Shown piece by piece: positions 24,557 through 55,191 of a DNA stretch of 64,000 bases. Numbering within the stretch: the stretch's first letter is position 1; each line of letters begins with the position of its first letter. Source of the stretch: Cladorhizidae sp. MBARI D1340-BT2 (taxonomy: Eukaryota > Porifera > Demospongiae > Poecilosclerida > Cladorhizidae); the NCBI GenBank assembly GCA_028752905.1, contig JAQNBH010000015.1, forward strand, positions 34,392,163 through 34,456,162, in the 5' to 3' direction. A program made the position numbers and the translations under genes. The notes under the pieces are model-generated. The model was given only the letters and a program-made list of their open reading frames with translations. It was not told the DNA's origin and searched no databases.

Positions 24557-24587
<31 letters not shown>

Positions 24588-25018
24588 ACACACACACCTT
24601 TTATTTCAATATTTTGATGTAGAGACCCCATAATTTTTGGCATACAATAGACACTTGATTGGGCCTTTACAAAGAATATTATCATTCATAATCCATAATT
24701 ACTAGTTCAATTATGTCATTTCTTGTAGTCAGCAAATGTTGTTGTCCTGCATCATTGCATCATTCAAGAGCATTTGCCATTTAGCAAATGAGATTGGTGG
24801 TATGACAGGACTTTGCATAAATTGCAACGTGCCTTATTTAGACTTTAGCATGGATTGATGTAGGAATACAGATTGATGTAAAAGAACCATGCTAACCAAC
24901 AAAACTCGACTAACACTTAAAACTAATCAGTACGATGGGTGTGCGATGAGGCACTATTTAATAGTTCAATAGTTTTTCACGAGGTTAATTTAATGATTTT
25001 CAAAGTGATCAAAAAGCT
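23662..25018. promoter_or_regulatory. Divergent intergenic region between COPS3 and the START-vinculin gene
   Basis: About 1.36 kb between the two head-to-head start codons; it must hold both 5' UTRs and promoters unless non-coding exons lie further out. It contains an ATT microsatellite at about 24146-24176, a long poly(C) run with a CA repeat at about 24547-24598, and a sequence at about 24480-24545 resembling the arm of the TTAA-flanked elements. No clear TATA box was identified. Confidence 0.45.
24547..24598. repeat. Poly(C) followed by (CA)n
   Basis: More than 25 consecutive C bases followed by about 12 CA units. Confidence 0.95.
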
Positions 25019-28000
25019 ATGTTAGTCACATTTAAGACAGAGCCGGCGGAATATTCTGATCCACTTAGAGATGAAGGTGCAGTCTATATAAAGTTAGCTG
25101 AGTATCTATTATTTGAGCAATGTAAGGTCCTGAACTTAACATAACCTTGTGATATTTTTTTTAGGTTTCAAGAGGCTTTTGGAAGAAGAGAGTTCTTCTC
25201 CCTGTAAGGAAACTGGATGGGAGTTGTTTAGTAAGACATTGGACTGTGAAGTATGGAGGCAAGCAAGCACTCAGTACAAAGCTGGAGTGGTCAAGGTGAA
25301 GTTTGGGGGCTTTTTTTTTTTATAGAAAAAAAAACATGGACATTATGTGTTCTTTTTCACTTCTGTCTAGGTCTCCAAGTCCAGGGGTGGGTAGAGGAGT
25401 TCATTTTTTAGTTGGGAGGGAGGGAGGGAGGGGGGGGCAAGGCACAACATGTGGCACTGTGGTTTAAGGTTAAGTATTTCAAAAGCTCAGAAAACAAGCT
25501 AAGCCTAGGAGTATGCCTTGGGAGACCCCCCCCTCTTCCCCTTCCCCATTCCACTCCTCCTCAGTGTGGCTCCCAGACCTCAGTTATCTCTATATATGCC
25601 TGCAGATTATTTGTCTGATTCTGTAAAGCAGGTAAGAATTATATATTTAATGGTCTTGGAAATCAGGCATTTCAGCAGTAAAACAACCAAGGTCTTTTTA
25701 AAGTTCCTGACAGTGCTTTCATATAGACTATAACCAAGATCTCTGGAAACAGCTGCTCTGACTTCCATTTTCTCCCTGCACATCATGCAGTATTTTTTTG
25801 GTTTGGTGACGTTAAATGACCTTTCTCAGCTTCAGTACCATAGTTCCAGAACCCTGGCATTAGTATTTCCACCCATTAAATTCTACTTGGCAGCGATGGC
25901 AACAATGGGTTGCTACCATAGAGCATCAAGCACCTGGTGGCTTCAGGTGCTCAGCAAATTCAATGGCTGACTTTGGGGCATGCAGACAAAACAATAGCTA
26001 CCACTGTGTTTCTATCTAAACTCGTGGGTAGAAACAATACTGATTCAAGCTCAATTTAATGGCTCATTAAGATTACCCAGTGTATGTTTGGTGTTGATGC
26101 TGTTGTTGTTGATGTTGCTGTTGTTGTTGTTAATATTACTAGTGTTGTTGTTGCTGTTACTATCGGTGGTGTTGATGATGATTTGTTACTATTGCTGGTT
26201 TTATTACTGTTGCTGTTGTTGTTACTATTACTAGTTTTCTTTTGCTGTTATACTGTCGGTGGTATTGATGATGATTGGTGCTAGTGCTGTTGCTGTTACT
26301 ATTGCTGTGTTGCCGTTTTTGATGCCGTTGCTATAAATGTGTCACTGGCTCGTTCTTACTGTTGTTTTTGTTTTTGCTTCTGTTGTTGCAGCTGCTGTTG
26401 TTGTTGCTGTGGTTGTTGTTGCTGCTGCTGTTGTTGCTGCTGCTGCTGTAGTTGCTGCTGCAGTTGTTGTTGCAGCTGCTGTTTTTGTTGCAGCTGCTGT
26501 TGTTGTTGCTGTGGTGGATGTTTCTGCTGCTATTGTTGCTGCTGCTGTTGTTGCAGCTGCTGTTATTGTTGCTGTGGTTTTGGTGCTGCTGCTGTTGTTG
26601 CAGCTGCTGTTATTGTTGCTGTGGTTGTTGTTGCTGCTGCTGCTGTTGTTTGCTACTGCTTTCACTATTTTTATTGAGGTTAATATTACTGAGAATGTTG
26701 TTGCTCTTTACAGGGTTTGCTCACTTTTCGGGGAATACCTCCCTCCACAGGTATAGAATAATGTAGTACAATTTAATGGCATTCATAACACAAGTCTTAT
26801 CTGCCTGCTGTTGCAAAAGAACAAACCAGAAATTAGCATACATTTATTCTGGCGTTCATTTTGTGGGTATCTATTTGCTATGCAGTTCGAGACATCCTAG
26901 TGCATATGGAGGTGTGGAATGTTTTCGACCCAAAAGCTCCTGTAGTTGATGTCGTGGAAAATCATACACATTACAAAATGATTTATTGGTGAGTGGCATC
27001 CAAGTGCACCCATACTACAGTGACAGGAAGGGGTGTGTGGAAAGCTCTGTAACAGATGGCCGCTCTCAATGAACTTTCAGTTGATATATATATAGCCACT
27101 TACTAAACACAAATTTGTCACTCAATGTTTCGCTAGATGCACTAGCCTTCATCAGGAATAATTCACAACCATAAATTATCTTTCTGAATCACATCTTCCT
27201 CATTAAGATTCAACATGCTATGTAGAAGGATTCCATTGCTAGTGGAATAACTCTGCTTTGTAACAGCATTGAACTGCCCCAATTTCTGAAAGACACCAAG
27301 TAATATAGGAAGAAATGTTGGGATTATTCTCTCTGGAAAATCACCCTGCAGATGTACAAATGTAATTACTCAACCCTGTTTCTTACTATGCAGTGGGGGA
27401 TAGTTATATCCTGGCAACGTGCTATGGCCTTAGTCCTAGCCCCTGCTCTAGCCTGAGCCAGTTTGGGTGGAAAAGAACGTAGTTATTCCTAGTCTTGTCT
27501 ATGGACACATAATGGTGTGATATATAATCACGTGGAGAGACAGGACTATCATACACACAACACAGTGCAGTTGCATTCTCTTATTCCAGAGATGTGCTTC
27601 ATAGATTTTGGTATATTTTTACAGGCATGCCAAGCTTCCCTTTTGTGTGAAGCCTAGAGAAATGTTACATAAGATCTACTGTCAAGATGAAAAAGACACA
27701 TTAGCCCAGTACATCCTCTACCTGGACACAGAGCATCATTTTAAGCCACACAACGACAGTGTCATCAGGTAATTAATATGTGTCGGGGTATATAAAATTG
27801 TCATGACATTTAGGATGCATATGGAGGATGGTTCATAATGCTGAGCAGTGTGCTAGTTTTTTGACGACTGTAAAATAAAACTCAAGTATATTCCAGTGCT
27901 GTCGTAGTGTTCTTCATAACTTGTAACATAACGGTGAACTGAGCTCAAGTGAATTAATCACTGCTTGTAAAAACTTACTTTTAGAACTTAGTATTAATTT

Positions 28001-31000
28001 TGTATATTCCATAATTACATCTCTTACTACACTGATGCTAAATAAATATTGAAAACAATTTCAAGTGTGCTTGCTTACCAATTAAGTGACATTCAAAAAA
28101 ATATAAATATTGGGACTCATTTATTTATATTAGCCCAAGTTAAATCTCAGTCCCAGCCCTAATTCTAACTTAGCGTTGGCCCCAGTCCCAGTGCTAGTCC
28201 TAACTCCAGCCCTAACCCTAGCCCCAAATTTGAAGCCTGGCTAAAGTATCGAAATAGTACTGTCTCACTATGTGCACCATGGATTACAATGGCACACTTT
28301 GTCACGAATCCAAATGAATTTTTTTCCAGGATGAAGACTCATTTCCTAGGAGTGATTATTCGCCCACATGTGGTCTTCCCTGACTCCACAACCTTGATTC
28401 TAGTCATGCAAGTGGATATCAAGGGGTGGCTCCCTTATGTTTTGGGAAATAGACACTTGGCAAAGGCACCCAAGAATTGGCATTCTCTGCTGACTGACTA
28501 CTACTGGAATTTCTATTCCAAGAACAAAATCAGTGATGAGAAGACTGTTGCAAACAGCATTGTGACAGACAGTGAAGATGCCAATGATGCTGATACAGAG
28601 GGGAGTGGAGGGATTAGAGCACTGTCAGGTATTTTATCCATAATTAATTACAATAGCCATAGTGCAACTGCCACCGTGAACCTTATATGCCTATAATAAT
28701 CCAATGTTGCATTGTGTGCACAAATAATTATACTAAACTACAAATGTTTTTTCCCTGTTCAGTTAAGAATACCTAACACTGTTATTATTGAAGAGTAGTA
28801 ATTTTGCACCCACTGGATTTGAATTTTGCTATTCTAGGAATTACCAACTGTATAAAAATGCGTAATTTAAAATTAGTGCATGAGAAATTCAACCACTCAC
28901 TAAGTTATAGAACCTATCTATAGTTAACAGGGTATTTTTTTGGCATAGTTTTTAAATTTGCTAATTATTTTTATTAGGACTTGAGGTCAAGACCGTACTA
29001 AATCAAAGTGATTTGGCTGAAATAAGGAAGGCAGTTCTGAATTTTCCAGAAAAGAACCGACTGATAGTGGAAAAGATATGCAACGAAATCAGTGAACTCA
29101 CCAGAGAGCTAGAAGTACTGCAAGGAAGGGAGGAGGTGAGAGAGTAATGTCATACGTAGCAGAATATTTGATGATTTAATAAGTGAATATTACAAATTCT
29201 GTGGAAATGGAGTCGATCCTCGGCTAGCTCTCATACTTATAAATGTAAGGAGTGTATGCGTATGTGTATCTGAGTCAGGCACTCAGGTGCATGCAACATT
29301 AATACTCTAATTGGAGAGATCTCAAGGTGAATTGGTACAGTGGAGCCTCCCTTAACTGGTTCTCCAAGAAACATATGACCTCTGATAAGTGGACCAACAT
29401 AAAAGCACTAGTCGATTTTATGTTATGAACTTCTGAGAAGCAATTGCCTCTGTGCTTAGGAGAGCAGATGTCACAAAATCCTTACTAGCACGATTTAATA
29501 CAAAACATAATGAACAGTTAGCCACACCCCTCAAGATATTTACTTTTGCATGTCCTGCCCCCCAGGCCCACTCTGTTCAAGCTATGAGCAGACTGAAGCT
29601 GAGGATGGCTGTGAGCAACACAGTCGGGGACCTATAGCTTTTTGATATTCATTCATATATATATTAGGGGTCGGGCGATCATCCTTACATGAACATTTGG
29701 ACTCCAGTTCTAGGTCAAACAACATTGCTGTAGAACTGAGAGCCAATCAACAACAGAAACAGTAATGCAGCAGGGGTTTTGCAAGAGGATGTGATCGTAG
29801 GATATGTTCCAATCCCAAGGGAAGAGTGTCATAAAATTATTTGCTGAGTTGAATGAGAAAAGATGAAAAGAGGAGGACGAGAAAATGAACTTGAGATCCC
29901 ATACATACACCACTTTTGTGGACCAAAGGCCTATGTAAGAAAAATGAGAAATCTGGTGGAATCTGTAATATTTGTTTGCATGCTGTAGTCAAAGTCAGCA
30001 GAATAGTTATAAGACTTATAAGTCATAAGACATGATATAGACAGGAGACAGGAGACTGAGCAATCTTGTACAACCAGTAAAAATAACAGTGCAAGGCCCT
30101 ACAAAAGAACAATAGACAATGTACAACAACAATGAACAGCAGTAAGGCTTAAGTATAGTACCGAACATGCTCAAGGTAACAGGAAGTCAGTTTACCACAC
30201 TCCTCTCTCACTAATAGTCAGGCTGGTTCAGAAGACTTGGATGCACTGTGATTGCATCGAGAGCATGGAAAACATGTTGCTCTCACTCACAGCTGCAGGA
30301 ATGGGTGTTGCTGCTGGGCTCTATGTCTTGTAGTAGGCATGTTTGTTGAAGCATCCTGAGTAGTCGTGCAGCAGCCAGGATTTCTCTGGATAGGTGTTGT
30401 TAGCAAATATTTGGTGTTTCATCTTGTCAAAATCCAATTCTGCTTCTTAACTCGATTCTGCTGTAAAATCTTTAGAACTATCAGTTCTTTCCCAAACTGG
30501 TCAATATGTCATTTCCACAGTTCACCACTCTGAACTTGAATCAGATATAACACTGGTCTACTTTGTTCAACAATCAGGTATAACAGGTCTACTTTGTTCA
30601 ACGATAGTGCCGGGGATCTATTTTAGTGATTTTGCACATTACTCTTCGACCAATCAACATTTCTCTTGTACATGCCTTCTGGTCATAATTTAGTTTCCTG
30701 TTTTCCTGTTATGGTGCCAATTCCACTTTCACATCTGGGCTAAATAGATCCAGATGGGTCCATAATTGTCCCTTGAGGAACACTGAAGCAGGTGCTACAT
30801 TTGTGGTTGCATAGGAATTGTTTCTGTGTGTGAACAAGAAGTTCATCAACATAGATGTAGTGGAAACCCTTTATTTGTGGCTTTCATTCTTCTCATGAAT
30901 GTTAGGAATCACTCAGCAGCTCCATTTGAGGCAGGGTGGTATGGAGTGAGGCAGGTAAACTTCACACCACTGTGCTTCAACAAATTCTAGTAACATAAAC

Positions 31001-34000
31001 TGGGTCCATTGTCAGAAACTGATAAAGCACAAGAAGTAAACACCTCTTGCAACTCCTACACTTAAGTAATAAGTTAGTTGATGTCATTGGAGTGACTTCA
31101 GGCCATTTGGAATGTGAATCCATGGAACGGAGCGATTTGTCATTCGCTTTTACATCAGCGGTAAATGGGTGTGAGCTTCATGACCTCACAATACAATCAG
31201 GCAATCAGAACTGCCGGAACATTCTTCTTGCACTCTATGAGTTCTTCGTAGAATTGTAGTAAAACTGTTCGTAAGGTTTCCTCTTACCTTTGAATGCCTT
31301 CTTTCGACATGCACTGCAGGTTGTACCCTGGAAGTACATTCAGATGCAAGGCGATTATCTCGTCCACATGGATAACAGGTCCTGTTAAAACCAGGAATGC
31401 TGGTCTTCTTCTTCCTGTCCGAGTAAAACCTGTGAATTTTTCCTCTTCTTTATTACACTGCTGAAATATGAGATTAACAACTTCCATCCATTCTGCAATT
31501 TCATCTGCTGCAGCAAAGGAGGTCAGGCATTGTGAACCATTTCTTTTGAATGGCCTCATTTTGAAGACCACACACAAAACAATCTCAGAGTGCCTGTCAG
31601 GTGCTTTTGAAATATCCCTCGTGTATAGTGTTATCAAAAGTACTATCAATGGAGAGCTTCCTGAGGGCTGCAATGGAATTTTCGATAGATACTTCATCTG
31701 TGTATTATGGTGATAAAGCTGGAGTCTCTCTACCATGACTACCTTCTTTGGCTCAAAGTGTTTGCATAGCACTTCCTGCAAGTCTGCTAGCAGCATGTAC
31801 TTCAGTCTGGTCGGGTTTACGAGCAATTATTGCAGAGATTAGATATTTCCTCCTAGTAAAGAGACATTCTTTCTTGCCTTCAAGTCTCTCACTGATCCAT
31901 GGTCATCCTTGAACACATCCTTGTACAGTTTGAATAGCACCTCCATGTGAGCTTGTCCATGATCGAGGGTAGATAGTTTGCACCAACAGGTGATATAGCC
32001 AGTCTCTCCTGAGCAGAGCTGGCCTACTTCCTGTAATAATTATAACGATAACTATGTACCATAGGATACCTGTACTGGTGTCTCTATAGGATAACTGTAC
32101 TGGGGTCTCTATAGGATACCTGTATTGGTGTCTCTCCAACTACAGAGATGACATCGTCAGTATACGTCCAATCTGGTTGAAGTTAACTTGACAGTTGTCT
32201 TTTGAAACAGTTTTATCGACACAACAGCTCCAGTATCAATCTTGAAACAGAGTCCTGAGCATTAGTAATTGGGTATGAGTATCATGCCCTACCACAATGT
32301 ATGGGTAGGTCACAATCAGAACTGTCAGAGCATACATCTTACACTCTGTGAACTCTTACTAGACTGTTTGTAAGGTTTCCTCTTATCACCAACTCCATTT
32401 GAACAACTAAGTGCCCCTAATTGAAGAGATCTCAAGGTGAATTGGTACAGTGGAGCCTCCCTTAATTGACTCTACAAGAAACAGATGACCTCTGATAAAT
32501 GGACCAGCATAAAAGCACTGGTTGTTTTTATATTATGAACTTCTGAGAAGTAATTGCCTCTGTGCTTTGGAGAGCAGATGTCACAAAATCCATACTAGTA
32601 CGGTTAATACAAAACATAATGAACACTTAGCCACATGCCTATAGATATTTACCTTTGCGTGTCCCGCCCCCCAGGCCCACTCTGTTCAAGCTATGAGCAG
32701 ACTGAAGCCATGACTACCTTCTTTGGCTCAAAGTGTTTGCATAGCACTTCCTGCAAGTCTGCTAGCAGCATGTACTTCAGTCTGGTCAGGTTTACGAGCA
32801 ATTATTGCAGCGATTAGATATTTCCTCCTAGTAAACTGAAATACAGAGACATTCTTTACCTTGAAGCATGCCTTCAAGTCTCTTACTGCTCCATGGTCAT
32901 CCTTGAACACATCTTTGTACAGTTTGAATAGCACCTCCATGTGCTTGTCCATGATCGAGGGTAGATAGTTTGATGGTCTTCCACCAACAGGTGATATAGC
33001 CAGTCTCTCCCAAGCAGAGCTGGCCTACTTCCTATAATAATTATAACAATAAGGTTTCATAACTATGTACCATAGGATACCTGTACTGGTGTCTCTATAG
33101 GATACCTGTACTGGTGTCTCTATAGGATACCTGTACTGGTGTCTCTATAGGATACCTGTACTGGTGTCTCTATAGGATACCTGTATTGGTGTCTCTCCAA
33201 CTACAGAGATGACATCGTCAGTATACGTCCAATCTGGTTGGAGTTAACTTGACAGTTGTCTTTTGAAACAGTTTTATCGACACAACAGCTCCGGTATCAA
33301 TCTTGAAACAGAGTCTGAGCATTAGTAATTGGGTACGAGTTTCATGCCCTCACACGATTACATGATGTAGTGGTAGATCACAATCAGAACTATCAGAGCA
33401 TTCATCTTGCACTCTATGAGTTCTTACTAGAATTGTAGTGAAACCTTTCGTAAGGTTTCCTCTTATCATCAACTCCCTTTGAAATAAAAAATCTTGGCTA
33501 AGTGTCCTTCTTTCCACATGATTTGCAGGTTGTGTCCTTGAAGTGACATTCAGGTGCAAGGTAATCATCTCATCTACATTAATAATAGAAGCAGCAATGC
33601 TCATTCCTGTCTGAGTAAACCATGTGAACTGTTCCTGTTCCTACTTATACTGCTGAGATATGAGATCAGCTGCTTCCATCCCTTCTGCAATTTCAACTGC
33701 TGCTGCAAATTATGTCAGGCATTTTTTCTGAATGGCCTCACTTCGAAGACCACACACAACCACAGTGATAGTTTACAGCTTGCATTTGAGGTATTGTAGT
33801 GAGATTCTAACTGGCTACTATTCTTTCTTAATAACTGTTATCATAATTATGATTCATGCATTATGGAATGTTTTGTGGAATGGGCATGCTCAGTATGGAA
33901 TGGACTAAAATGACTAGGTTGATTTGTAACTCAGTCTCTTAAAGTATCTGTTAGGTAGCCCTTATGAACTAGCAATCACTGACTCTACATGGTGGCAAAT

Positions 34001-37000
34001 GTTGAATCTAAGCCATTTGTCAGAAGTAAGCAAGATAATCTAGACCACATGGCAGCAACCTATCAAGTGGCTCCTCCTGAACAGTTCACCTTCAGTTGCC
34101 CCCAAGAATGTCCAAAATGGGTCAGGAGTTTCGAGAGGTTTAAAAGTGCTGCCAGCGCCAAGGATAAAACTGAAGAAGTAAAAGTGAACGCACTAATGTA
34201 CTCCGGGCAATGAACGATGACATTCTCAGATCATTCTCATTGTTTGATGAGGACAGGAATAAGTACGACACAGCCAAGGAGAGGTTTGAGAGCCACTTCA
34301 TAAAAACAAGGAATGCTATATTTGAACGAGCAAAGTTCAATCTGAGGGTAAAGGATGAAAATGAACCAGTAAATGCCTTCATCACAGACTTGCATGCTTT
34401 GGTGGGTATGAGACCCTGCATGATGAGATGATCTGGGATCATATTGTGGTGGGCCTGCAAGATGCCAAATTCTCTGAAAGATTTCAGCTGGATGCAACCA
34501 GAAAGGCAGTTGACAAAGTACACCATCAACAAACAGCAATCAGTGATCTGGACTGACAAGAACTCAGCCCAATAGGGGACCCCGACTACAGCAGGGTTAC
34601 AGATGACCAATGACCTTCTCAAGTTCAGCTGGTAGAAAACAATGTTCCTTATATGGCAAAGCACTTTCCCATGAGTGACAGAAGTGCCCAGCTAGGATGT
34701 CACTTGTCGGAACTGCATTAAGAAAGGCAATTTCAGGGTAGTATGGCAAATGTCAGGGAAGTATGACAAGATTAAGTACCTAACTCAGATGAAGAAGGTG
34801 AGTCCTTCCTTGGAGCCGTAGAGAAGAATCTCTGGGTAGTCAACCTGAAACTGAATGGCAATTCTGCATTGATAGCAGCACAAGTAAATGTTACACCAGA
34901 ATGCAACTACCAAATACTCCACAATATCTCGCTCTTGGCATTTCAGTTGATATTGAGAGGACCCGGTCAGAACAAACTCCAAGCATGCGGCCGGATCTCT
35001 GGAACTTATGTAAGAGATGAGCTAGAAACAGAGCAGGAAATCTGTCATCAAGTATCTCCACAAGCCACTGCTGGGATGGCCTGGCACTGAAGCATTCAGA
35101 CTTCTAGCATGAGTGATCGGGGGTAGAACAGAACAAAACCCCTGAACAGTTTTTTCCAGGATTCTTTGAGAGCCTTAGGAAAATGCATGGGGAATACATG
35201 ATCAAGCTTCATGAAGGAGAAAAATGTTCCTCTGACCCAACCTCAAAGAGTAGCTATCCCTTTCATTCCAGCTGTCAGGACCGAGCTGGAGTGGATGGAA
35301 AAGCTAAGATTAATCTCTTGTGTGGATGAGCTTATAGTGTGGTGTGCAGGTATGGTGGTCTCCCCCAAAGTTAAAGGAAAGGTGTAAATTTGGATTGATC
35401 TCACTAAGTTAAACACTAGTGTGTGTCGAGAGCATTATCAACTCTTGCACAAATTTCAGGTGCCCATGTGTTTTCTAAGCTGAAAGTTAATTCTGGCTTT
35501 TGGCAGATCCCATTAGGAAGAGAATCCTTCTTACTCACAACATGCATTATGCAATTTGGCCTAAATAGACTATCCTAAGTTATAACCTCGACCTCAGAAC
35601 ACTTCCACATAGCATAACTGATTTATTGAATGTGTTAGAAGGCATAGTGTGCCTTATGGATGATTTTAGTCCATTGAAGAACCCAAGAAGAACATGAAAA
35701 TTGGCTCGCTGCAATACAACGACTCCTTAGGTCCAGTATGTGACTCTCAACAAACAAAAATGCAAGTTCTCCTGTTCATAGATCCAGTTTCATGGACAGA
35801 TCCTTTCAGAGTCAGGCATATGCTCAGATAGAGAGAAGATCAAAACTATCCAAAAGCTCCATGCCAGAGATGTACAAGGAGTTAGAAAATTCTTGTGCAT
35901 GGTCAATTAGCTCAAGAAGTTCAACTCTCAAATTAGCAGAGAAGATGAAGCCATTAAGATATCTCTTATCAAGCAATAGTTCTTGGTGCTGGGAGCATCC
36001 ACAGAGGTCAGCATTCAAAAACATCAAAACTGCCTTAATGGAGAGTCCCATCCTAGCCCTATATACCCTCCAGTTTGAGACAATTGTATCAGCTGACGTT
36101 CCCTCATATGGACTTGGAGCTGTCCTCCTACAGAAACATCCAGCCAGAAATCTCTACCCAGTGGTAACATCACTCAAGCCATTATCCCAGACAACAGAGA
36201 TACACACAAATTGATAAAAGGCGTACGCTCCGACCTGGATGTGTTTGTTAACTACATTATTTGGATTTCCTATCATAATCAGGCCAACCATAAGCCCTTA
36301 GTATCCTTACTCAGTACTAAACTTCTGAACAACATCCCCATACATACACAAACAGTCCGGAGGAAGCTATTGCGATACAACTTCTCAATCAGTCCCATAC
36401 CCAGAAAGGACCTCATTATCGCAGATTCACCATGAAGCGCCCCAATCCATACAGACAGGAACCCATTGGATCAGCTTTTCCAAAATACCTACATCCAGCT
36501 TACCATGGAGAATCTCCAGTACAGAAAGGAGATTGGGAGATATTTGGGAAGCTTGGCTGAAGGATGAAACTTGTGAGCAGGTCAAAAAGTACTGTCAGGA
36601 GGGGTGGCCTGAGAGGAACAAATTGTTTCGCTCAGTGAAAAGATTCTACCCGGTGGTTGCAGAACTAGCAGGATGCTGATGAGAGCGAATCATTCGGCAT
36701 TCAGCACTTTAGGTAGAGCCAATTTCACATTGGGTACCAGGTGATTCAAAATGTAATCAGCATGCCAAACAAGCCTGGACTATCGACCAAAGTTGAAAAT
36801 CTGTCGAAAAGCTGTCCCGATGCATCAAGTTTCAGTGTCCCAGAGAGCTGAGCCAATGTTACCAACTCCTCTACTGAACCTGCCCTGGCAGAGAGAGTAG
36901 CTTCTGATCTCTTTGAGTGGCACAAGGCAACATATCTTCTGATAGTGGACTACTTGAGTTTGCACATCTGGGACCAACTCACAGCAAGTGCTACAACACA

Positions 37001-46000: not shown

Positions 46001-49000
46001 TTGAAATTTATTAGAACTGTGATGAAATGTCTGTAATAACAAGCTATAATTCAGGGAGTCAGCATTGGTTCCACTATATATATATATATATATACTAGCT
46101 GGAATACCCACTCTCAGTTGTTGATGTTGGCCTCTAAATACACACATATATAATCTGTCTATTTATTATCTATTCATTGTGGCTACTCGGGGGGGGGGGG
46201 GGGGTGAATGGTTCCACCTAGGTTCAAAGTAGGGGCTTGAGTACCAAATGAATAGGGGGAGAAAATGAAAGAAAAAGGAGGGGGTTGGAAGGTGAAGAAC
46301 CTTGAGTGCCAAAGCAAACAGACAAACTCTGTTACAGGAATACTCTCAAGCTGGTGATATATATATATGGGCTCTAAACATACACATACACACATGAATA
46401 ATGGCCACTGACTTTTTTCTTTCTTTTTTAGTCGAAACCCCACACAATTTCTTGATCCTGACAAAAAAAAACAATAATAAGATTATAAAGAGACAGCTAT
46501 TACTGTTATTTTATTTGTTTATTTGTTTGGTTTGGTTTTTGTAGAAGCCGTTCCACAGAATTTCCCATTATTAATATTAGCAGGAGGGGGAAGGAGAGGA
46601 AGGGGAAAAAAGATGAACGATTCCCAACATTGAACTGGGAACCTCGAGTATATACCAAGTGAATGAAGAGAGGGGAAAATGAAGAGTGATTCTGCCTGGA
46701 ATTGAACCGGCACCTTGAGTAACCAAACCAGATAGAGGAACCCACAGAATTTCCCCTTGTTATATGTATATATATACTTGACAAAGACTTGAAAAATGAT
46801 TTGTTAAAAATCATGTCTGAGTTCACTCATGTCAACTCACCTTCAATATAATGTATATTTATTTTTTAGGTAGCTGCACTTCAACTCGAGCATGATGCCA
46901 ATCAGTGGGAGTGCAAGAGCAATGGGATGGTAGAAGCTGCCACAAAAATGGCTCATTCTATGATGAGAATGGGAAGACACACAAGGTGACTGAATATATG
47001 TAGAGACATTGATGGCCATTGTGGGCTCGACTAAGTAAAGATTGTTGTTGTTTTTTTTGTTTGTTTGTTGTTTTGTTATTGTTGTTTTGGGGGGAAGGGG
47101 GTTAGAAAAACATTTTACTAGACACAGTTGTGTGTGTGGTGTATGTGGTCTGTGGGGGTGGGAGTGGGAGTAGGAAAGAGGGGAGAGTGGTGGGGGGAGT
47201 GGGATGGGGGTGGGTTTTTTTTTTGTGGGTGTGGGTGTATGGTGTGTGTGGAATTGGGGGGGATGATGGAAGATGTTAAACTGACAAGCTAATCACACCC
47301 AAACTAGATCTTGCAGAGGGAGTCTACACACATCTTTACTATAAATATATCAGGTGCTCTTTATTTTGAAACTTGATGGGCCGGTAATAGTTGAGAGGGG
47401 AATAGTTGAGAGGGGAAATACTTGTAGACTTTACTTGATGAGTCATGGAAACTTTTTATTCTGATAGGTCACATAAAATACATAATGCAGTTAGCAGCAC
47501 TTGGTTAACTAATATCAAAGTTTTGCTTTGAAGCTGTGAATGTTTATTCACCTGAATATGCTGAGTGTGCAGTTATTCACCTGAATGTCCTGAATGTGCA
47601 GTATTCACATGAATGTGCCTGAATGTGCAGTTATTCACATAAATGTGAAGATTCATCTGAATGTGCAGTATTCACCTGAATGTGCAGTATTCACCTGAAT
47701 GTACAGTGTTCATCTGAATGTACTGTGTTCATCTGAATGTGCAGTATTCATCTGAATGTACAGTGTTCACCCGAATGTGCAGTATTCACTTGAATGTGCA
47801 GTATTCATCTGAATGTGCAGTATTCATCTGAATGTGCAGTATTCATCTGAATGTGCAGTATTCACCTGAATGTACAGTGTTCATCTGAATGTGCAGTATT
47901 CACCTGAATGTGCAGTATTCATCTGAATGTACAGTGTTCATCTGAATGTGCAGTATTCATCTGAATGTGCAGTATTCACTTGAATGTGCAGTATTCATCT
48001 GAATGTGCAGTATTCACCTGAATGTGCAGTATTCATCTGAATGTGCAGTGTTCATCTGAATGTGCAGTGTTCATCTGAATGTGCAGTGTTCATCTGAATG
48101 TGCAGCAGTATTCACCTAAATGTGCAGTATTCACCTAAATGTGCAGTATTCATCTGAATGTGCAGTATTCATCTGAATGTGCAGTATTCATCTTTTTTTT
48201 CTTCTTTTTTCTTTTTTTTCTTCGCGATATAATAAAAAATCATTAGTACGAAGTATAACAGCAACAACAGAACCAACAACAACAGAAATAGTGCCTGCCC
48301 ATCCACCCTAGGAGATAGGGTTAGAAGATGACTCAACCACATGACTGCATTACCTCTCCAAAGGCAGATGGCCAAATGTTGGAAGAGGTGGCGTATAGAC
48401 TCCGCTGGAGGTATCCCTCGGCGCTGCCCTTGGAGTCGTGCAATTACCTGGATGGTGTCCAGCCCCTCCTCACTCCAACCTCCTGTTGCCTCTACTGCTA
48501 CTGGGATGAAGTTGACCCCCACTGAGTGACAGGGCGCAGAATGAACAGCCATCTTTCTGGCTTTGGCAACAGATAGTGCATAACCTTGAATGGTGGAGGC
48601 TGCAGCAATTGTCACCTGTTGAAGGTGCGAGATGACTGTGACATCAATGGCAGCTGGTTGGCCCCTTTTCCATATTGGTAGGAAAACATCAGCTGGGCAG
48701 CTAGCGGATCCTAGAATGAGAGCCGGCACTTCTCTCTTGGGCGCATAAGCAGCAGACTGAGCTGCAGAATATAGTGCATCCCTAAGAGAGTCATGCCGAA
48801 AGATCCTATCACCGTTGCCACCGCAGCCAACCTGTGATCACCAAAAAGGTCAGTGATAATCTGGCATATGGAGCACTGAGTTCCGTCCTCAGCCATCCTA
48901 ATTCCCAACCAATACTGCATACACAGACGGAACTCAGCGTCGAAGAGATGGAGACCGAGGGCTTGGAAAGGAACAACATTGAGCCAATCACCTGCATGGG

Positions 49001-52000
49001 GAGTACAACAGAGAGCCAAAGCCTTTGATCTCATGTCCGGGGCCTGAGCGATGAGAGAACCATAGGCTGCCTGATCTATTGAGCGAGATAGGGCCTTTTG
49101 TGTAAGGGGAACATCAATGTCTTGGAGAGAACACCATTCCGGTTTTGCTGCATTCAGGGCCAATTCGGACAGAGCAGAGGCTGCATGAGGGGAAACCTTT
49201 GGCATATTCCCAAGTATACTGCTAATGAGACCTTTAGAGGCATGCAAAGAGCTAAGGAAAGCTGCTGGGGCATGTAGCGAAGCCTGTCTGATGTTGAGAC
49301 CGCCTAGGGAGCTTGGAAGAGTTGCCTTTTCCCATGACCAGTCAGACAATGGATAACCAGCAAGGTCAGAGACGGCTTCCCACATGGTGTTATCGAAAGC
49401 TTTCAACGCCTCTTGGAGATGGCAAGGGGGACATGTGTGGAGGGCAAAAATTATCTTTGGAAGCGTCAGGCAGGAACGTAGCAGCGTTGTCTCCATCTGT
49501 GAGTCCTGGAGGTCAGGCAGGCAGGATAGAATCTTCTCCAATTTCTTTACCCGGTTCATGAGTGTGGCTTCACAAAATGAGGGAGGACCTAGTTGGGCAC
49601 CCAACACGATGAACCCTTCACGAGAGATGGGGATATCCGAAGGGAGGGGATTAGGAAGGGGGCAGGAGGCCTCAGGTATGTGTAAAAGGGATTTCAGTCG
49701 ATTCAAATGGAGGCCTCGAGCAGGACCATCTTGTTCAATAATGGTCAAAGCAGCACACAGATCCTTGGCCGAACCACACAGTGATCCATCATCAAGATAC
49801 CAGGCATTAATCAAGAGGCCTGGCACCTGCTTGCGGATCTTCTCAACTAGCGGATGGAGGGCCAGAGAAAAGCTGAGTGGGCCTAACGGATCACCCTGCT
49901 GGACCCCACTGCAGCTGGGGATGGAATAATTACCAAAATAGAGGAGACATCTAGTACCATAGCACATCTCCATCCAAGCAGATATCGAGGGTATGCGGTC
50001 TCTTATTTCCTTGAACATACACCCCCTATCAATCCCATTGAAGGCATTAGAGAAATCAAGTAAGAGCGTCCATTTTTCCTCAGGAAGAATGTCAATATCC
50101 TGTTGCACCTGGGTCAAGGCATGAACAATGGTCCCACCGGCACTCCCACTCCAACTTGTGAAGGGGCAAAGACCTTGAAGGACTCTGTTCTCACCGCCCT
50201 TGAAATGCACTTGGAAGTTAGGCGGCGCAGGACTTCCCCTACAGCAATGGGCCTAAGCCCACCCCACCCCTCTTCCTGCTTGCAAGGAGAGAAGCCCCAC
50301 AGAGATGTGGAATAACTTCAGAGGGAGCATCGCCCGCACATAGAAGGTTGACCAATCCCTGAGAAGGGTAGAAGGGCACTATTTCGTCTATCTGGTGAGG
50401 GACAGAATATAGCTTCTTTGATGTGAGTAGCTCTAAAATTAGATGGGCCAGGAGCAGAGCCATTGGGGAACGACTTAACTGCAAAGATGACATCCTTCGC
50501 TGACACCCTGACAGGAGATGGTACGGGGTCAGTTGGCATAGAAGGTGGTGGTGTCTGAGGGTGTTTAGACAGCATGTCATCAAAGGAATCAGCATCTGCC
50601 GGAACAAGCCCATCTGACGTAAGAATCTGGATAGCTTTCTTATATTGACCATCCTCCACAGCGCTCCGAGCCCGTCTAGCATTGGCCACTCTCAGCAACT
50701 CTGGGGTCACCTTCCAAAGCTTCCCTTGGTGGTTGTGAAGCTTGGAAGTCAACTCCTCCACAGTAGACCATAGACCCAGGAAATCACACCCTTTCCACCT
50801 ACGTATCCTAGCCTTGACGAGCATTTCCGTAGCACGCCAATGGCTCCCGCCCCCTCGCTTAGGTGCAGCCAGAATACATCGTGGTAACATAAAGACCTTG
50901 CTCCAGACAGCTATATCTAAAGGATCTGCCACAATGTCACGAAATACCTCGCCGAAAAGACCGGCCCAAGCATCTCTTGCTCCTTTAGGGACATGCTTAA
51001 GGATGATGGTCTTTTCCCTAAGGATGGAAGTTAGGGATGGGAGAGTGATTTGATGATCAGCTGGTAGACCAGTATTAGTGATAGAGGTGGGGACTGTAGC
51101 AGGAGATGTAGATGGTGGCTGAGACGAGAGAGGTAGAACTTGCAGCAAGGAAGTGAGTGGAGAAGATTGATGATGTAGAGTTACAGAAGGTTGGGTAGTA
51201 GATGTAGAATGTTGGACAGGGGTGAGGTCAGGTGAGCCATTGGTTGGAAAGGGGTCGACATCTCCCTCATGGCAAACAGGTTTGTTAATAGAACCAACAA
51301 CTGAAGAGACAGAGCTTGAGGATGAGATGGGAATGATTGGAGCTGGTATATGCCCACCAGAGACTGAGTTATGACATGTTCCGCCTCGGATGGCTAAGCA
51401 GTTCACACATTGTTTCTTCTGTCGACAGCACGAACAATTAATACAGCGCCCACTGTGGTTGCATCGACAACAGACTAGCTAAAAGCTAGTTTGACAGTGA
51501 CTGGCTAAAGCTACCTAACGACAAGTGGACTAAACGGATGAGCGCGGACAGTGTGAATCTGCAGTACTCACCTGAATGTGTAGTATTCTCCTGAATGTGC
51601 AGTATTCATCTGAATGTGCAGTGTTCATCTGAATGTGCAGTATTCATCTGAATGTACAGTATTCACCTGAATGTGCAGTATTCACCTGAATGTGCAGTAT
51701 TCACCTGAATGTGCAGTATTCATCTGAATGTGCAGTATTCATCTGAATGTGCAGTATTCATCTGAATGTGCAGTATTCATCTGAATGTGCAGTATTCACC
51801 TGAATGTGTAGTAGTCACCTGAAAGTGCAGTATATTCACCTGAATGTGCAGTATTCATCTGAATGTGAAGTATTCATCTGAATGTGAAGTATTCATCTGA
51901 ATGTGCAGTATTCACTTGAATGTGCAGTATTCACCTGAATGTGCAGTATTCATCTGAATGTGCAGTATTCATCTGAATGTGCAGTATTCACCTGAATGTG

Positions 52001-55000
52001 CAGTATTCATCTGAATGTGAAGTATTCATCTGAATGTGCAGTGTTCATCTGAATGTGCAGTATTCATCTGAATGTGAAGTATTCATCTGAATGTGCAGTA
52101 TTCATCTGAATGTGCAGTATTCACTTGAATGTGCAGTATTCACCTGAATGTGCAGTATTCATCTGAATGTGCAGTATTCATCTGAATGTGCAGTATTCAC
52201 CTGAATGTGCAGTATTCATCTGAATGTGCAGTATTCATCTGAATGTGCAGTATTCACTTGAATGTGCAGTATTCACCTGAATGTGCAGTATTCATCTGAA
52301 TGTGCAGTATTCATCTGAATGTACAGTATTCATCTGAATGTGAAGTATTCATCTGAATGTGAAGTATTCATCTGAATGTGCAGTATTCACTTGAATGTGC
52401 AGTATTCACCTGAATGTGCAGTATTCATCTGAATGTGCAGTATTCACCTGAATGTGAAGTATTCATCTGAATGTGCAGTATATTCATCTGAATGTGCAGT
52501 ATTCATCTGAATGTGCAGTATTCACCTGAATGTGAAGTATTCATCTGAATGTGCAGTATATTCATCTGAATGTGCAGTATTCACCTGAAAGTGCAGTATA
52601 TTCATCTGAATGTGCAGTATTCATCTGAATGTGCAGTATATTCATCTGAATGTGCAGTATTCACCTGAATGTGCAGTATTCATCTGAAAGTGCAGTATAT
52701 TCATCTGAATGTGCAGTATTCATCTGAATGTGCAGTATATTCATCTGAATGTGAAGTATTCATCTGAATGTGCAGTATTCATCTGAATGTGCAGTATTCA
52801 CCTGAATGTGCAGTATTCACCTGAATGTGCAGTGTTCATCTGAATGTGCAGTATTCACCTGAATGTGCAGTATTCACCTGAATGTGCAGTATTCATCTGA
52901 ATGTGCAGTATTCATCTGAATGTGCAGTATTCTCCTGAATGTGCAGTATTCATCTGAATGTGCAGTATTCTCCTGAATGTGCAGTATTCATCTGAATGTG
53001 CAGTATTCATCTGAATGTGCAGTATTCATCTGAATGTGCAGTATTCATCTGAATGTGCAGTATTCACTTGAATGTGAAGTATTCATCTGAATGTGCAGTA
53101 TTCATCTGAATGTGCAGTGTTCATCTGAATGTGCAGTATTCATCTGAATGTGCAGTGTTCATCTGAATGTGCAGTATTCATCTGAATGTGCAGTATTCAC
53201 ATGAATGTGCAGTATTCATCTGAATGTGCAGTATTCATCTGAATGTGCAGTATTCACCTGAATGTGCAGTATTCATCTGAATGTGCAGTATTCATCTGAA
53301 TGTGCAGTATTCATCTGAATGTGCAGTATTCACCTGAATGTGCAGTGTTCACCTGAATGTGAAGTATTCATCTGAATGTGCAGTATTCACCTGAATGTGA
53401 AGTATTCATCTGAATGTGCAGTATTCACCTGAATGTGCAGTGTTCATCTGAATGTGCCTGAATGTGCAGTATTCATCTGAATGTGAGGGTGTTTATATGC
53501 TTGTGATTGTAGGAGCAAATAATGGCTTGAGAAAAAATAAATCAGAAGGATGGGGAGTGTAGGTTGTGGGAAGTCCAATGAGTGCTTCCCTCCAGGCTGC
53601 CTCCCTAGAGACTCTCATCTTGAAAGGATTATTATATTACACATCCCCAATGACTATTTCCACCAGCCCCTACTTATGCTGTGTTATGATAGTCAACATT
53701 ATAAAAATATTTGTCCAGAAATGAAGAAAATAGTCGTTCGAAGAACGAGATAATTAAGCAATCCAGAAAAATTGCTGCTGAAAGTGAAAATGTTGCTGAA
53801 ATGGCTCTAAAACTGGCAGAGGTTTGCACCAATGCAGCATTGAGAAAAGTAAGTTAACGAAGATTACTTGGTGGATATAACAACCCTAATGATTATATTA
53901 TTCTTTTAGGCTCTAGAGGAAGTGGTGGGTAAACTTAAAATGATTTCTACTCAGCTCAAGATTATAACATCAGTGAAGGACAGTGAAACACCAGGTAAAC
54001 ACACACACACACACACACATTGTTTACAACAGATTGACTACCATCTTAAACATATTTATAACTTATTGAAAATTAATTAGATAATGGGAAGCAAAACAAA
54101 ACCCAACAAATAAATAGACGTAGTAGTGCTGAGCACAGCTAGCATGTTCCCACGCTGGATGGCAATGGAAATTCTCTGAAGGAGAAAATGATGGGAACGT
54201 GGTTTGTCGGATTTTACCTCGAGACGGCATCCCAACTCCCGAAGGAACAGAGATGCCTCCACTTCAAACACTCCAGTGGTTTCTATCCCAATTGGGACCA
54301 AAAAATGGGTAGAAGCAATATTGGCATACTTTTCCTTCTTCAAGGACTCTAGAGTACAAAATTAATAAACTCTCAATGTCTCAATTGACATAATAACATA
54401 ATAACCTTCTCAAAACGTCAAAACGTCAAGTCGAAACGTCAATTTCAAGTTGCTTATTGAGAAAGTTCAACTCAGCCAACCACAATACTTGTCAAAAAAA
54501 GGAAATAAGAATTTAGCAATGTAGACCTCACTGGCAGAACTTTTAAATAAAATCTGTGAAGTCCTCATTTCATTTTTTATTAAAAAAACATGAAGTTGTG
54601 TATTTTTTGTTATATACTATTTTGGTATTTTTGTACGAACTTGTAATTATTAAGAATTTAATATAAAGGCCAAAATAGTCTTTATTGGTAGATTAGCTAG
54701 ATTAGTGTGTCCAAGGAATTAAATTTTGAAAGGTCAAAGGGTAGGGCCTGTGTTCAATAATGCGGATTACTGTTCAAGGTTGCAACAGTGTATATATATA
54801 TATAGCTAAGTGAAAATAAAGAACTTCATCAGTTAAATTTAGTAGTAGTTTTATGTGCCCAACCATTATTCTGTGCAAACTCAACAAACATGCTTGTGAT
54901 ACAATACTGAATATATATTGCTATGCACACATTATATACATAGGTCCTGGTAAAGATGAAATAGCCATCGAGATGCTTACAGAAAATGCTGAGAATCTGA

Positions 55001-55113
55001 TGTCAACAGTGTCTGAAGCGCTGTTTATCAGTGAAATTGCTACCATCAGAGTGCCCATAGAGGAACGTAACAATCTTAGTTTGAAGTGGGTGAAGACATT
55101 GCCCAATACATAA
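25019..55113 (+). CDS. START domain-vinculin C-terminal chimera (20 exons, predicted 789 aa)
   Basis: Exons: 25019-25121, 25165-25295, 26714-26750, 26886-26988, 27625-27768, 28330-28628, 28978-29135, 41611-41770, 42985-43148, 43208-43273, 43381-43492, 43905-43969, 44043-44178, 44286-44377, 44444-44507, 44599-44648, 46870-46985, 53734-53848, 53910-53994, 54944-55113. They sum to 2370 bases, exactly 790 codons including TAA; every intron is GT-AG and every phase matches. Residues about 30-240 form a START lipid-transfer fold. About 241-275 is an acidic Ser/Asp/Glu linker. About 283-611 align with vinculin D3-D4 (NPGNQ motif at exons 10/11), 612-628 are a short acidic linker, and 629-789 align with the vinculin tail, ending in LKWVKTLPNT. 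The vinculin head is absent. The ATG at 25019 is the first in frame after an upstream stop. Inferred role: lipid-regulated actin/membrane linker. Retaining intron 7 would give a START-only product ending at 29147. Main doubt: transcription across the 12.5-kb intron 7 is unproved. Confidence 0.8.
26087..26655. repeat. GTT/GCT trinucleotide-repeat block in intron 2 of the START-vinculin gene
   Basis: Nearly 570 bases of mixed GTT, GCT, GAT and GTA triplets, purest from 26370 to 26655 (GCTGCTGTTGTTGCTGCTGC). It ends about 60 bases before microexon 3, so it lies in its acceptor region. All frames look open (Val/Ala, Leu or Cys runs), but this is intron. Confidence 0.92.
27060..27185 (-). mobile_element. 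Hairpin/hammerhead-like repeat, copy in intron 4
   Basis: On the minus strand, 27127-27156 reads CCTGATGAAGGCTAG, TGCAT, CTAGCGAAAC. This has the hammerhead layout: CTGATGA, a stem GCTAG/CTAGC with a 5-base loop, then GAAAC. The flank TCAATGAACTTTCAGTTGAT is shared with copies near 45.35 and 59.39 kb. Confidence 0.55.
29340..29640. repeat. Dispersed repeat, copy 1 (second copy at 32430-32710)
   Basis: AAGGTGAATTGGTACAGTGG through GAGCAGACTGAAGC is nearly identical at the two sites over about 280 bases. The second copy interrupts the antisense Gypsy remnant. The class of element is not known. Confidence 0.8.
31284..31826 (-). pseudogene. Gypsy gag fragment
   Basis: A 180-residue open frame with CKHFEPKKVVMVERLQLYHH, a serial-substitution-prone capsid-like region (LYTRDISKAPDRH, FAAADEIAEWMEVVNLIFQQ) and a damaged zinc knuckle (NLQCMSKEGIQ). 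The layout matches the gag of marine-invertebrate Gypsy elements. No intact polyprotein follows. Confidence 0.65.
32430..32710. repeat. Dispersed repeat, copy 2
   Basis: Second copy of the repeat at 29340-29640, directly followed by Gypsy gag-like sequence (CATGACTACCTTCTTTGGCT). Confidence 0.8.
32728..32952 (-). pseudogene. Rearranged Gypsy pol/gag junction fragment
   Basis: Starts with a pol-like stretch before the reverse transcriptase (YKDVFKDDHGAVRDLKA) and passes directly into gag-like ARKPDQTEVHAASRLAGS. This order is not that of a normal element and indicates internal deletion or template switching. Confidence 0.55.
33085..33205. repeat. 25-base tandem repeat (GGATACCTGTACTGGTGTCT), about 5 copies
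   Basis: Copies of GGATACCTGTACTGGTGTCT plus CTATA. A shorter version lies at about 32065-32140, in the other copy of the same Gypsy segment. Confidence 0.9.
33350..33789 (-). pseudogene. Gypsy gag-protease region fragment, third copy
   Basis: Minus-strand fragment with DECSDSSDCDLPLHH (acidic region before the protease) and gag-like words shared with 31260-31700 and 38430-39600. The younger Gypsy interrupts it at the GGTAT that ends at 33794. Confidence 0.55.
33795..33989 (+). repeat. 5' LTR of the plus-strand Gypsy
   Basis: About 195 bases, from TGTAGTGAG to CTCTACA. The gag-like frame begins at its very end (ATGGTGGCAAATG). Confidence 0.8.
33989..34560 (+). pseudogene. Gypsy gag, two overlapping frames
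   Basis: Frame one ends WVRSFERFKSAASAKDK and KVNALMYSGQ. Frame two continues DEDRNKYDTAKERFESHFI and ENEPVNAFITDLHAL; a third frame carries IWDHIVVGLQDAKFSERFQL. Together they match the capsid part of gag, broken by frameshifts at about 34210 and 34420. Confidence 0.7.
35150..36220 (+). pseudogene. Gypsy reverse transcriptase/RNase H, heavily mutated
   Basis: Recognisable stretches are VAIPFIPAVRTELEWMEKL, GMVVSPKVKGK, WIDLTKLNTSV and, near 36050, ETIVSADVPSYGLGAVLLQ, the start of RNase H-like sequence. Numerous stops lie between them. Confidence 0.6.
36890..37300 (+). pseudogene. Gypsy integrase, mutated
   Basis: Stretches such as LFEWHKATYLLIVDYLS, DYGFKHITSNPYHTQGVGE and TEKAIKT, then YSPSELLMGRRLQSTVP, match the integrase core and the region after it (the GExE..I helix). 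Frames change several times. Confidence 0.65.
37618..37807 (+). repeat. 3' LTR of the plus-strand Gypsy
   Basis: About 190 bases, from TGTCTCC to CTCTACA, alignable with the 5' LTR (ATGCTCAGT, AATGACT, AGCAATCACT) and followed by the GGTAT duplication. Confidence 0.8.
37813..38660 (-). pseudogene. Continuation of the older Gypsy gag fragment (right of the nested element)
   Basis: Continues the gag-like sequence interrupted at 33789, repeating words from 31620-31880 (GGAGAGCTTCCTGAGGG, TTTGGCTTGAAGTGTTTGCA). Many indels; no intact frame. Confidence 0.6.
38681..39226. mobile_element. TTAA-flanked inverted-repeat element, copy 2
   Basis: TTAA lies at both ends (38681-38684, 39223-39226). The arms share GTGGTTAC.../...GTAACCAC, TGCATAAATATC versus GATATTTATGCA, and GTGCTCTCTTTTGA-type words also present in copy 1. 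The centre has a GTGGGGGGTGGGG run. It interrupts Gypsy gag sequence whose uninterrupted counterpart is near 33530. Arm identity is much lower than in copy 1, so this insertion is older. Confidence 0.75.
39235..39750 (-). pseudogene. Older Gypsy gag fragment, last part
   Basis: Words shared with 31400-31850 (GAAGACCACACACAAAACAATCTC, here cut to GAAGACCACACACAAAACA; AGTGTTTGCATAGCACTTCC). It leads toward the right LTR at 39866. Confidence 0.55.
40140..40530. repeat. 41-42-base palindromic minisatellite, about 8 copies
   Basis: The unit contains TCTAGCCTTCATC, TGATGAAGGTTAGATGC. Each unit holds a hairpin, CCTTCATC-T-GATGAAGG. The sequence at 40155-40181 links it to the hairpin/hammerhead-like family, suggesting the array grew from one such element. 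Confidence 0.9.
42195..42232. repeat. Poly(G) tract in intron 8
   Basis: A nearly uninterrupted run of about 27 G bases. Intron 8 also has two poly(C) runs (about 42496-42517 and 42581-42599). Confidence 0.95.
44649..46869. other. Intron 16 of the START-vinculin gene
   Basis: 2.2 kb without coding sequence. Contains an inverted repeat at about 45385-45465 (ACCTTCTCAATAATCAACTT / AAGTTGATTATTGAGAAGGT) of the hairpin family, a (TA)n run near 46077 and a poly(G) run at about 46190-46203. Confidence 0.6.
45349..45470. mobile_element. Hairpin repeat, copy in intron 16
   Basis: Inverted repeat of CTTCTCAATAATCAACTTGA and its reverse complement around a short loop, with the flank CTCAATGAACTCTCAGTTGA shared with the copy at about 59.4 kb. 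The hammerhead-like core is missing here. Confidence 0.6.
47545..48187. repeat. 19-base minisatellite, left part, about 34 copies
   Basis: Unit TGAATGTGCAGTATTCATC with variants CACC, GTGTT and TACAG. Each unit has GAAT...ATTC symmetry. It ends at the A-rich 3' end of the retrotransposon. Confidence 0.95.
48190..48729 (-). pseudogene. Retrotransposon restriction-like endonuclease end
   Basis: SCPADVFLPIWKRGQPAAID followed by VTV carries the PAD...DVTV pattern of the PD-(D/E)xK-type endonuclease. FIPVAVEATGGWSEEGLD and HLAICLWRGNAVMW match the conserved C-terminal part of this family. The frame then runs into the A-rich 3' end. Confidence 0.75.
48711..50210 (-). pseudogene. Retrotransposon reverse transcriptase core
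   Basis: Open for 499 codons. Visible reverse transcriptase motifs are LLLDFSNAFNGIDR (first catalytic Asp), SGVQQGDPLGPLSFSLAL and WYLDDGSLCG, the YxDD active site. A thumb-like region follows with DWSWEKATLPSSLGGLNIR, then GDWLNVVPFQALGLHL. Near the end CSICQIITDLFGDH retains part of a Cys/His motif, but the last cysteine appears to be lost. The frame breaks just before the endonuclease. Confidence 0.85.
50318..51477 (-). pseudogene. Retrotransposon ORF, N-terminal part with Cys-rich motif
   Basis: The frame opens after a stop at about 51480 and has no ATG before a Cys-rich block (VCCRCNHSGRCINCSCC, then QCVNCLAIRGG). This could be a zinc-binding domain, so the true start may be lost or non-AUG. 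A Ser/Thr/Pro-rich linker follows, then a conserved region with MLPRCILAAPKRGG and GSAPGPSNFRATHIKE, just before the reverse transcriptase core. A frameshift near 50400 moves the reading to another frame that covers FVNLLCAGDAP-type sequence. Confidence 0.75.
51556..53490. repeat. 19-base minisatellite, right part, about 100 copies
   Basis: The same unit as 47545-48187 resumes directly after the retrotransposon, so the array was continuous before insertion. Longer variant blocks (AGTATATTCATC at 52470-52745) mark local duplications. Confidence 0.95.
54080..54360 (-). pseudogene. 3' fragment of a second restriction-like-endonuclease retroelement
   Basis: Minus-strand ANIASTHFLVPIGIETTGVF, ASLFLRELGCRLE and FLLQRISIAIQRGNMLAVL correspond to the C-terminal region that in the other element reads FIPVAVEATGG...LAICLWRGNAVMW. 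Only this end is present, as expected from 5' truncation. It lies antisense in intron 19 of the START-vinculin gene. Confidence 0.6.
54361..54478. mobile_element. Hairpin repeat, copy in intron 19
   Basis: Contains CAATTGACATAATAACAT, ACCTTCTCAA, a duplicated AAAACGTCAA and CAAGTCGAAACGTCAATTTC followed by AAGTTGCTTATTGAGAA. A degraded relative of the 59.2-kb copy. Confidence 0.55.
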
Positions 55114-55185: not shown

Positions 55186-55191
55186 AATAAA
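55186..55191 (+). terminator. Poly(A) signal of the START-vinculin gene
   Basis: A canonical AATAAA lies 73 bases after the TAA at 55111-55113 and is the first such hexamer downstream. It sits only about 40 bases before the 3' end of the convergent ZW10 coding region, so the two 3' ends probably overlap. Confidence 0.6.

Follow-up and report, generated by a model that had tools for sequence, protein, structure and literature searches.

A single gene predicted in the genome of a sponge of the family Cladorhizidae joins a START domain, in one reading frame, to the rear part of vinculin (domains D3, D4 and the tail), with the START domain standing where vinculin carries its talin-binding head. 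We read the locus as encoding one START-headed vinculin, a predicted single protein whose two ends would likely attach to lipid or membrane and to F-actin, respectively, and give this reading a probability of roughly 0.6. From the features described below we infer that such a protein would be expressed from one transcript, would bind both lipid and actin, and would have shifted its membrane contact away from the position used in vinculin.

To our knowledge, no START protein joined to a vinculin rod and tail is known; the known START fusions involve RhoGAP, PH, thioesterase and MENTAL modules. The open-licence literature, as represented by titles and the beginnings of abstracts, yielded no description of a START-vinculin protein, in agreement with an earlier note on this DNA, which knew of none.

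Gene model

The gene model occupies positions 25019 to 55113 of the forward strand in the 64,000-nucleotide stretch of DNA analysed here (the window), and consists of 20 predicted exons separated by 19 introns, all with GT-AG ends. Rebuilding the model from the raw sequence reproduced the coordinates, the exon count, the GT-AG introns and the absence of phase conflict given in the earlier note, but not its length: the joined frame, which runs from an ATG at 25019 to a TAA ending at 55113, comprises 2385 nucleotides including the stop and encodes 794 amino acids, rather than 2370 bases and 789 residues.

The START part is encoded by the first six exons. Exon 1 (25019–25121; residues 1–34 and the first base of codon 35) carries the ATG, lies in a stop-to-stop frame that starts at 24989, and ends at a GT donor; the START domain begins in exon 2 (25165–25295; residues 35–78), where the Pfam match sets in at residue 49, and continues through exons 3 (26714–26750; residues 79–90), 4 (26886–26988; residues 91–124) and 5 (27625–27768; residues 125–172). 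Exon 6 (28330–28628; residues 173–272) holds the end of the domain (Pfam match to residue 211), followed by an acidic linker that extends to residue 272.

Exon 7 (28978–29135; residues 273–325) encodes a predicted helix pair of the vinculin D3 type and lies with the START exons upstream of intron 7, which is 12.5 kb long. Domain D3 continues in exons 8 (41611–41770; residues 326–378), 9 (42985–43148; residues 379–433), 10 (43208–43273; residues 434–455) and 11 (43381–43492; residues 456–492), exon 12 (43905–43969; residues 493–514) spans D3 and D4, and D4 is carried forward by exons 13 (44043–44178; residues 515–559) and 14 (44286–44377; residues 560–590). The end of D4 and the start of the hinge lie in exon 15 (44444–44507; residues 591–611), the remainder of a short, acidic hinge with few prolines in exon 16 (44599–44648; residues 612–628), and the tail in exons 17 (46870–46985; residues 629–666, the first helices), 18 (53719–53848; residues 667–710), 19 (53910–53994; residues 711–738) and 20 (54944–55113; residues 739–794 and the TAA). 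An AATAAA at 55186–55191 (+ strand), 73 bases after the final stop, is the likely polyadenylation signal of the fusion gene.

Exon ends were picked by hand, on the basis of an open frame, GT-AG ends and resemblance to START and vinculin, and internal stops disappeared from the join once the boundaries of exons 13, 16 and 17 had been set. Because the ends were set in this way, the open frame is partly a product of construction; the family matches are not. Splice sites were scored by a leave-one-out procedure, with a matrix derived from the model's other introns, against a background of every fifth GT or AG in the window. All 19 donors lie above the 78th percentile, and 18 of the 19 acceptors above the 90th, the exception being that of exon 9 (64th percentile), the weakest of the set. 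At intron 6, which connects START to vinculin, the donor reaches the 97th percentile of sampled GT and the acceptor the 99th percentile of sampled AG. At third codon positions, G+C amounts to 0.46 for the START part of the gene as against 0.39 for the vinculin part, a difference that we take to be uninformative.

START domain

In the whole protein, residues 49–211 match the Pfam START family (PF01852) at 32.7 bits (cut-off 22; E 6.4e-8), over 165 of the 207 profile positions; when the first 272 residues are scanned separately, the match rises to 35.5 bits (E 8.9e-9). The family is common to the fusion and to STARD4, StAR and STARD3, among which STARD4 is the nearest solved relative (residues 48–223), but similarity is low (E 0.0043 for STARD4), and the START domain is here joined to a vinculin rod and tail. 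The last START helix likely reaches about residue 235–246; an AF2 model of exon 6 only, which is of low confidence (mean pLDDT 47.1), places two strands ahead of a helix at residues 222–246. A dead START copy was considered and rejected, as exons 1–6 are open and have GT-AG ends.

Vinculin rod and tail

The match to Pfam Vinculin (PF01044) has an E value of 9.8e-54 (183.4 bits against a cut-off of 38.1). Both families for which the earlier note proposed a Pfam search are present above their curated cut-offs, START in the N-terminal third, where that note had placed it. A sequence search of the PDB, which gave 36 rows at E ≤ 0.001, had at its top VIN1 (6bfi; E 6.5e-43, 150 bits), which we take to be a protein of the sponge Oscarella, followed by full-length vinculins from E 5e-41 (human, 144 bits) and then by vinculin tails. 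Alpha-catenin, which has the PF01044 superfamily in common with the fusion and matches it in D3 and the tail, is a far weaker match (best row 49 bits, E 2.6e-12); with 49 bits against 150 for the best vinculin it was ruled out as the parent, and the fusion model is without a catenin head. Alpha-catulin was absent from all search results.

The alignments with VIN1 and human vinculin both start within exon 7, at fusion residues 291 (VIN1 306) and 306, respectively. The order D3-D4-tail is common to VIN1 and the fusion over about 500 residues, whereas ahead of it VIN1 and vinculin carry the talin-binding D1 head and the fusion model START; since VIN1 residue 306 aligns with fusion residue 291, the preceding parts are nearly equal in length in the two proteins. 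The succession of D3, D4 and tail that the earlier note had proposed from exon 7 onward thus stands, with the correction that recognisable likeness begins partway into D3 (about human residue 529). In a tblastn search with human vinculin D3-tail as query, eight of the 13 exons from 8 to 20 were recovered at E ≤ 10 (six of them at E ≤ 0.002), the other low rows being proline-rich stretches. In a raw-frame Pfam scan, exon 17 gave an E value of 1.3e-6, but its 27.5 bits lie below the cut-off of 38.1.

Vinculin sequence in exon 7

The place of exon 7 was examined by a positional test, in which frames open for at least 20 codons and ending at a phase-0 GT were collected from both strands of the whole window and compared with the 35 vinculin residues that precede the part corresponding to exon 8 (human 529–563, VIN1 306–340). 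Among 1413 forward-strand donor candidates exon 7 ranks first, with a score of 25 (next 9.5) that was reached by none of 20000 shuffles, and all 1158 reverse-strand candidates fall below it (best score 6.5). The score rests on residues 291–325; residues 273–290, at the start of the exon, show no significant likeness, their score being equalled or exceeded by 1820 of 20000 shuffles. Residues 291–325 also rank first among the 760 stretches of 35 residues in the fusion protein itself (next 8.5), a ranking that controls for helix-like composition.

Exon 7 is too short to retrieve vinculin by itself: searched singly against the PDB, it gave three rows at E ≤ 10, with no vinculin among them (best a chain of C-type lectin family 4 member M, E 0.0023), and against Pfam just Tup_N (E 0.03, below cut-off). 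With exons 7 and 8 as a joint query, 15 rows were obtained, of which the first seven were vinculins: VIN1 at E 0.0011 and six others at E 0.017–0.44. An AF2 model of exon 7, made without an alignment, has a pLDDT of 87.5 and consists of two helices (9–21 and 24–50 of 52 residues) connected by a short turn, which in our reading of the ungapped register would adjoin the Gly-Pro of human vinculin MMGPYR. Of the 20 rows that Foldseek returned for this model at E ≤ 10, not one was a vinculin or reached E ≤ 0.001, a lone hairpin not being specific.

These results support the conclusion that exon 7 encodes vinculin-type sequence with a predicted helix pair. The earlier note had asserted that vinculin helices are already encoded before the 12.5-kb intron, which agrees with the VIN1 alignment from residue 291 and the first rank among 1413 donors, and had taken the exon for a vinculin-type helix pair, in line with the two helices of the AF2 model. 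With vinculin-type sequence in exon 7, the join between START and vinculin is independent of the 12.5-kb intron, and an assembly misjoin within that intron, considered as the source of the fusion, was ruled out on the same ground.

Junction and missing head

Of the competing readings, the one that survives best, which we nevertheless consider unlikely, is that two genes are nested or in tandem: exons 1–6 would be a START gene inside a long intron of, or beside, an ordinary vinculin gene, to which alone exon 7 would belong and whose head exons would lie upstream of the START exons or beyond the window. Vinculin homology does start in exon 7 and not in exon 6, introns of up to 12.5 kb at this locus leave room for head exons beyond the window, and read-through of an unspliced exon 6 meets a stop at 28694–28696, so that a START protein of ordinary size would result. 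Both splice sites of intron 6, however, are strong and compatible in phase, and the intron (28629–28978) is free of both AATAAA and ATTAAA, while an AATAAA does follow the final stop. Nor does 28629–28960 contain a first exon that opens with ATG and closes, in a compatible phase, at a G|GT(A/G) donor, and exon 7 is without any Met; a separate vinculin transcript may have an untranslated first exon and start in exon 8.

Head exons were sought by tblastn with human vinculin D1-D2, which found no match at E ≤ 10 in 10641–25018, whereas the same type of search recovers eight of the 13 known exons. Two of its nine rows at E ≤ 10 fall on exons 7 (E 4.5) and 8 (E 0.23); the remaining seven, which we take to be chance, comprise one at 57 kb (E 0.23), two in a tandem repeat near 4.5 kb, and one each at 49.8, 30.9, 58.4 and 61.6 kb, that in intron 7 being 30901–30957 (E 5.9). 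A raw-frame Pfam scan of the three forward frames over 10641–25018 and 28629–41610 likewise gave no vinculin but has little power, its control having seen one of ten vinculin exons and no START exon; its matches there were an RNase H-like domain (E 8.9e-12) and, both below cut-off, an integrase and a type III restriction-methylase. The near-equality in length of the parts preceding residue 291 in VIN1 and the fusion also argues against two genes, as do, weakly, changes in head-binding residues of the tail, which are expected where no head is present. In the gene model START stands in the place of the D1 head, by which vinculin binds talin and clasps its own tail, the substitution that the earlier note had described.

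Tail and hinge

Compared with vinculin, the START-headed protein has an acidic tail, a short hinge with few prolines and three changed residues among the four T12 positions of the head clasp. Of the 78 tail positions at which human vinculin and VIN1 agree, 41 are conserved in the fusion. Its actin-binding motif ISTQLKI, encoded in exon 19, is identical in the fusion, human vinculin and VIN1, and the longer ISTQLKI-x3-VK is retained; at the level of sequence, I728 and V732 correspond to human I997 and V1001, both kept and both of importance for actin binding by the vinculin tail. The motif predicts that the tail would bind actin.

Replacement of the T12 residues D974, K975, R976 and R978 by alanine yields constitutively active vinculin, according to a table in PMC6927945. 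The corresponding residues are N, A, A and R in the fusion (the first three, N705, A706 and A707, in exon 18) and D, K, R and K in VIN1, so that one of the four head-clasp residues is left. Loss of all three of D974, K975 and R976 has a chance of about 0.1 given that 37 of 78 positions are lost, and is not significant singly; the T12 losses would fit a tail without a head, but are suggestive only.

The net charge of the tail is -3 (pI 5.75), as against +9 (pI 9.75) in human vinculin and +6 (pI 9.55) in the VIN1 fragment; over the stretch covered by that fragment the values are -4, +8 and +6 for fusion, human and VIN1, respectively. PMC12180986 lists ten basic-ladder and four basic-collar residues involved in phospholipid binding by the vinculin tail. 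By that list, three of the ten ladder positions are basic in the fusion and six in VIN1 (which itself lacks four of the ten), one of the four collar positions is basic in the fusion and two of the three with data in VIN1, and the fusion tail thus retains four of 14 in total. The hinge has three prolines in 37 residues, compared with 20 in 55 in human vinculin, and does not qualify as proline-rich.

The charge of the tail bears on a second competing reading, in which the fusion is transcribed but START acts as a lipid-free protein-protein or folding module and the protein as a plain actin scaffold. The weak similarity to solved lipid-transfer domains (STARD4 being the best) is consistent with such a role, and no ligand can be named; we nonetheless think it very unlikely, given that START domains whose function is known usually have a hydrophobic ligand, that the profile match spans 165 of 207 positions and lies in stop-free exons, and that the tail gave up much of its own phospholipid-binding charge.

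Intron 7, repeats and the neighbouring gene

The least probable reading is that of two independent transcripts, of which one encodes a START protein and terminates after exon 6 or exon 7, and the other, from a promoter in intron 7, encodes a headless vinculin rod: read-through of an unspliced exon 7 meets an in-frame stop ending at 29147, and intron 7 is long and rich in repeats and retroelement remains, but neither AATAAA nor ATTAAA occurs in its first kilobase (29136–30200), and exon 7, the top-ranked vinculin-like exon end for the slot before exon 8, belongs with exon 8.

A decayed retroelement lies in intron 7 at 33983–37650 (+ strand), with the RNase H-like match (E 8.9e-12) and the sub-threshold integrase in different frames. 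The intron also contains four similar short frames with KCLHS or KCLHG (31717–31842, 32623–32817, 37912–38049 and 39565–39708); 25-bp tandem repeats (at 32061 and 33072) lie close to two of the four. These frames are perhaps copies of a small mobile element. Intron 17 harbors an array of 19-bp tandem repeats (47619–48193 and 51554–53457), divided, as if by retroelement insertion, by an element on the reverse strand (48172–51478) that encodes a reverse transcriptase (RVT_1, E 6.6e-13). Upstream of the fusion gene are two large tandem arrays, at 6620–10640 (34-bp unit, about 119 copies) and 19888–22025 (52-bp unit, 41 copies). Downstream, an intronless ZW10 gene (55233–57545, - strand; a frame of 770 amino acids) is oriented convergently to the fusion gene, whose stop lies some 120 bases away; it has Pfam matches to ZW10_C (E 2.1e-36), ZW10_C2 (8.2e-35) and Zw10_middle (1.3e-30), and to Zw10_N below cut-off.

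Relatives

A protein search gave no match at E ≤ 0.001 among 7990 scored candidates, and a pattern scan of prokaryote genomes confirmed none of its ten matches; neither returned an ordinary vinculin either, so that they provide no test of relatives. A spliced gene of vinculin type next to ZW10 suggests an animal host, and VIN1 as the nearest solved relative would be compatible with a sponge, although its lead over human vinculin is small (150 against 144 bits). For another sponge, Ephydatia, the excerpted text of PMC6820919 describes one vinculin homolog and does not mention START.

Discussion

In a START-headed vinculin of the kind proposed here, the START domain (about 235–246 residues, plus the acidic linker) would have taken the place of the talin-binding head D1, and would recruit the actin-binding rear of the protein to lipid or membrane, so that recruitment would proceed via lipid and not via talin. 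With no D1 head in the model, neither the usual recruitment by talin nor the usual head-tail clasp is expected, and three of the four charged tail residues of that clasp are changed. As the tail has lost most of its phospholipid-binding basic residues, membrane contact may have moved from the tail to START. We raise only tentatively, as rather doubtful, the further step of a lipid-gated actin tether, in which occupancy of START, rather than talin or tension, would free or recruit the actin-binding tail.

If this is true, a domain swap in one lineage has made a lipid sensor out of an adhesion protein that bears force, with the tail stripped of its membrane-binding charge. In vinculin, the head, its lock on the tail and the phospholipid-binding tail itself are regarded as a single integrated switch; a naturally occurring form that has a START head, a changed clasp, a tail with its charge removed and a conserved actin motif would show which of these parts are separable. 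The fusion would also link START domains directly to the cytoskeleton, and would offer a ready test protein for lipid control of an actin linker.
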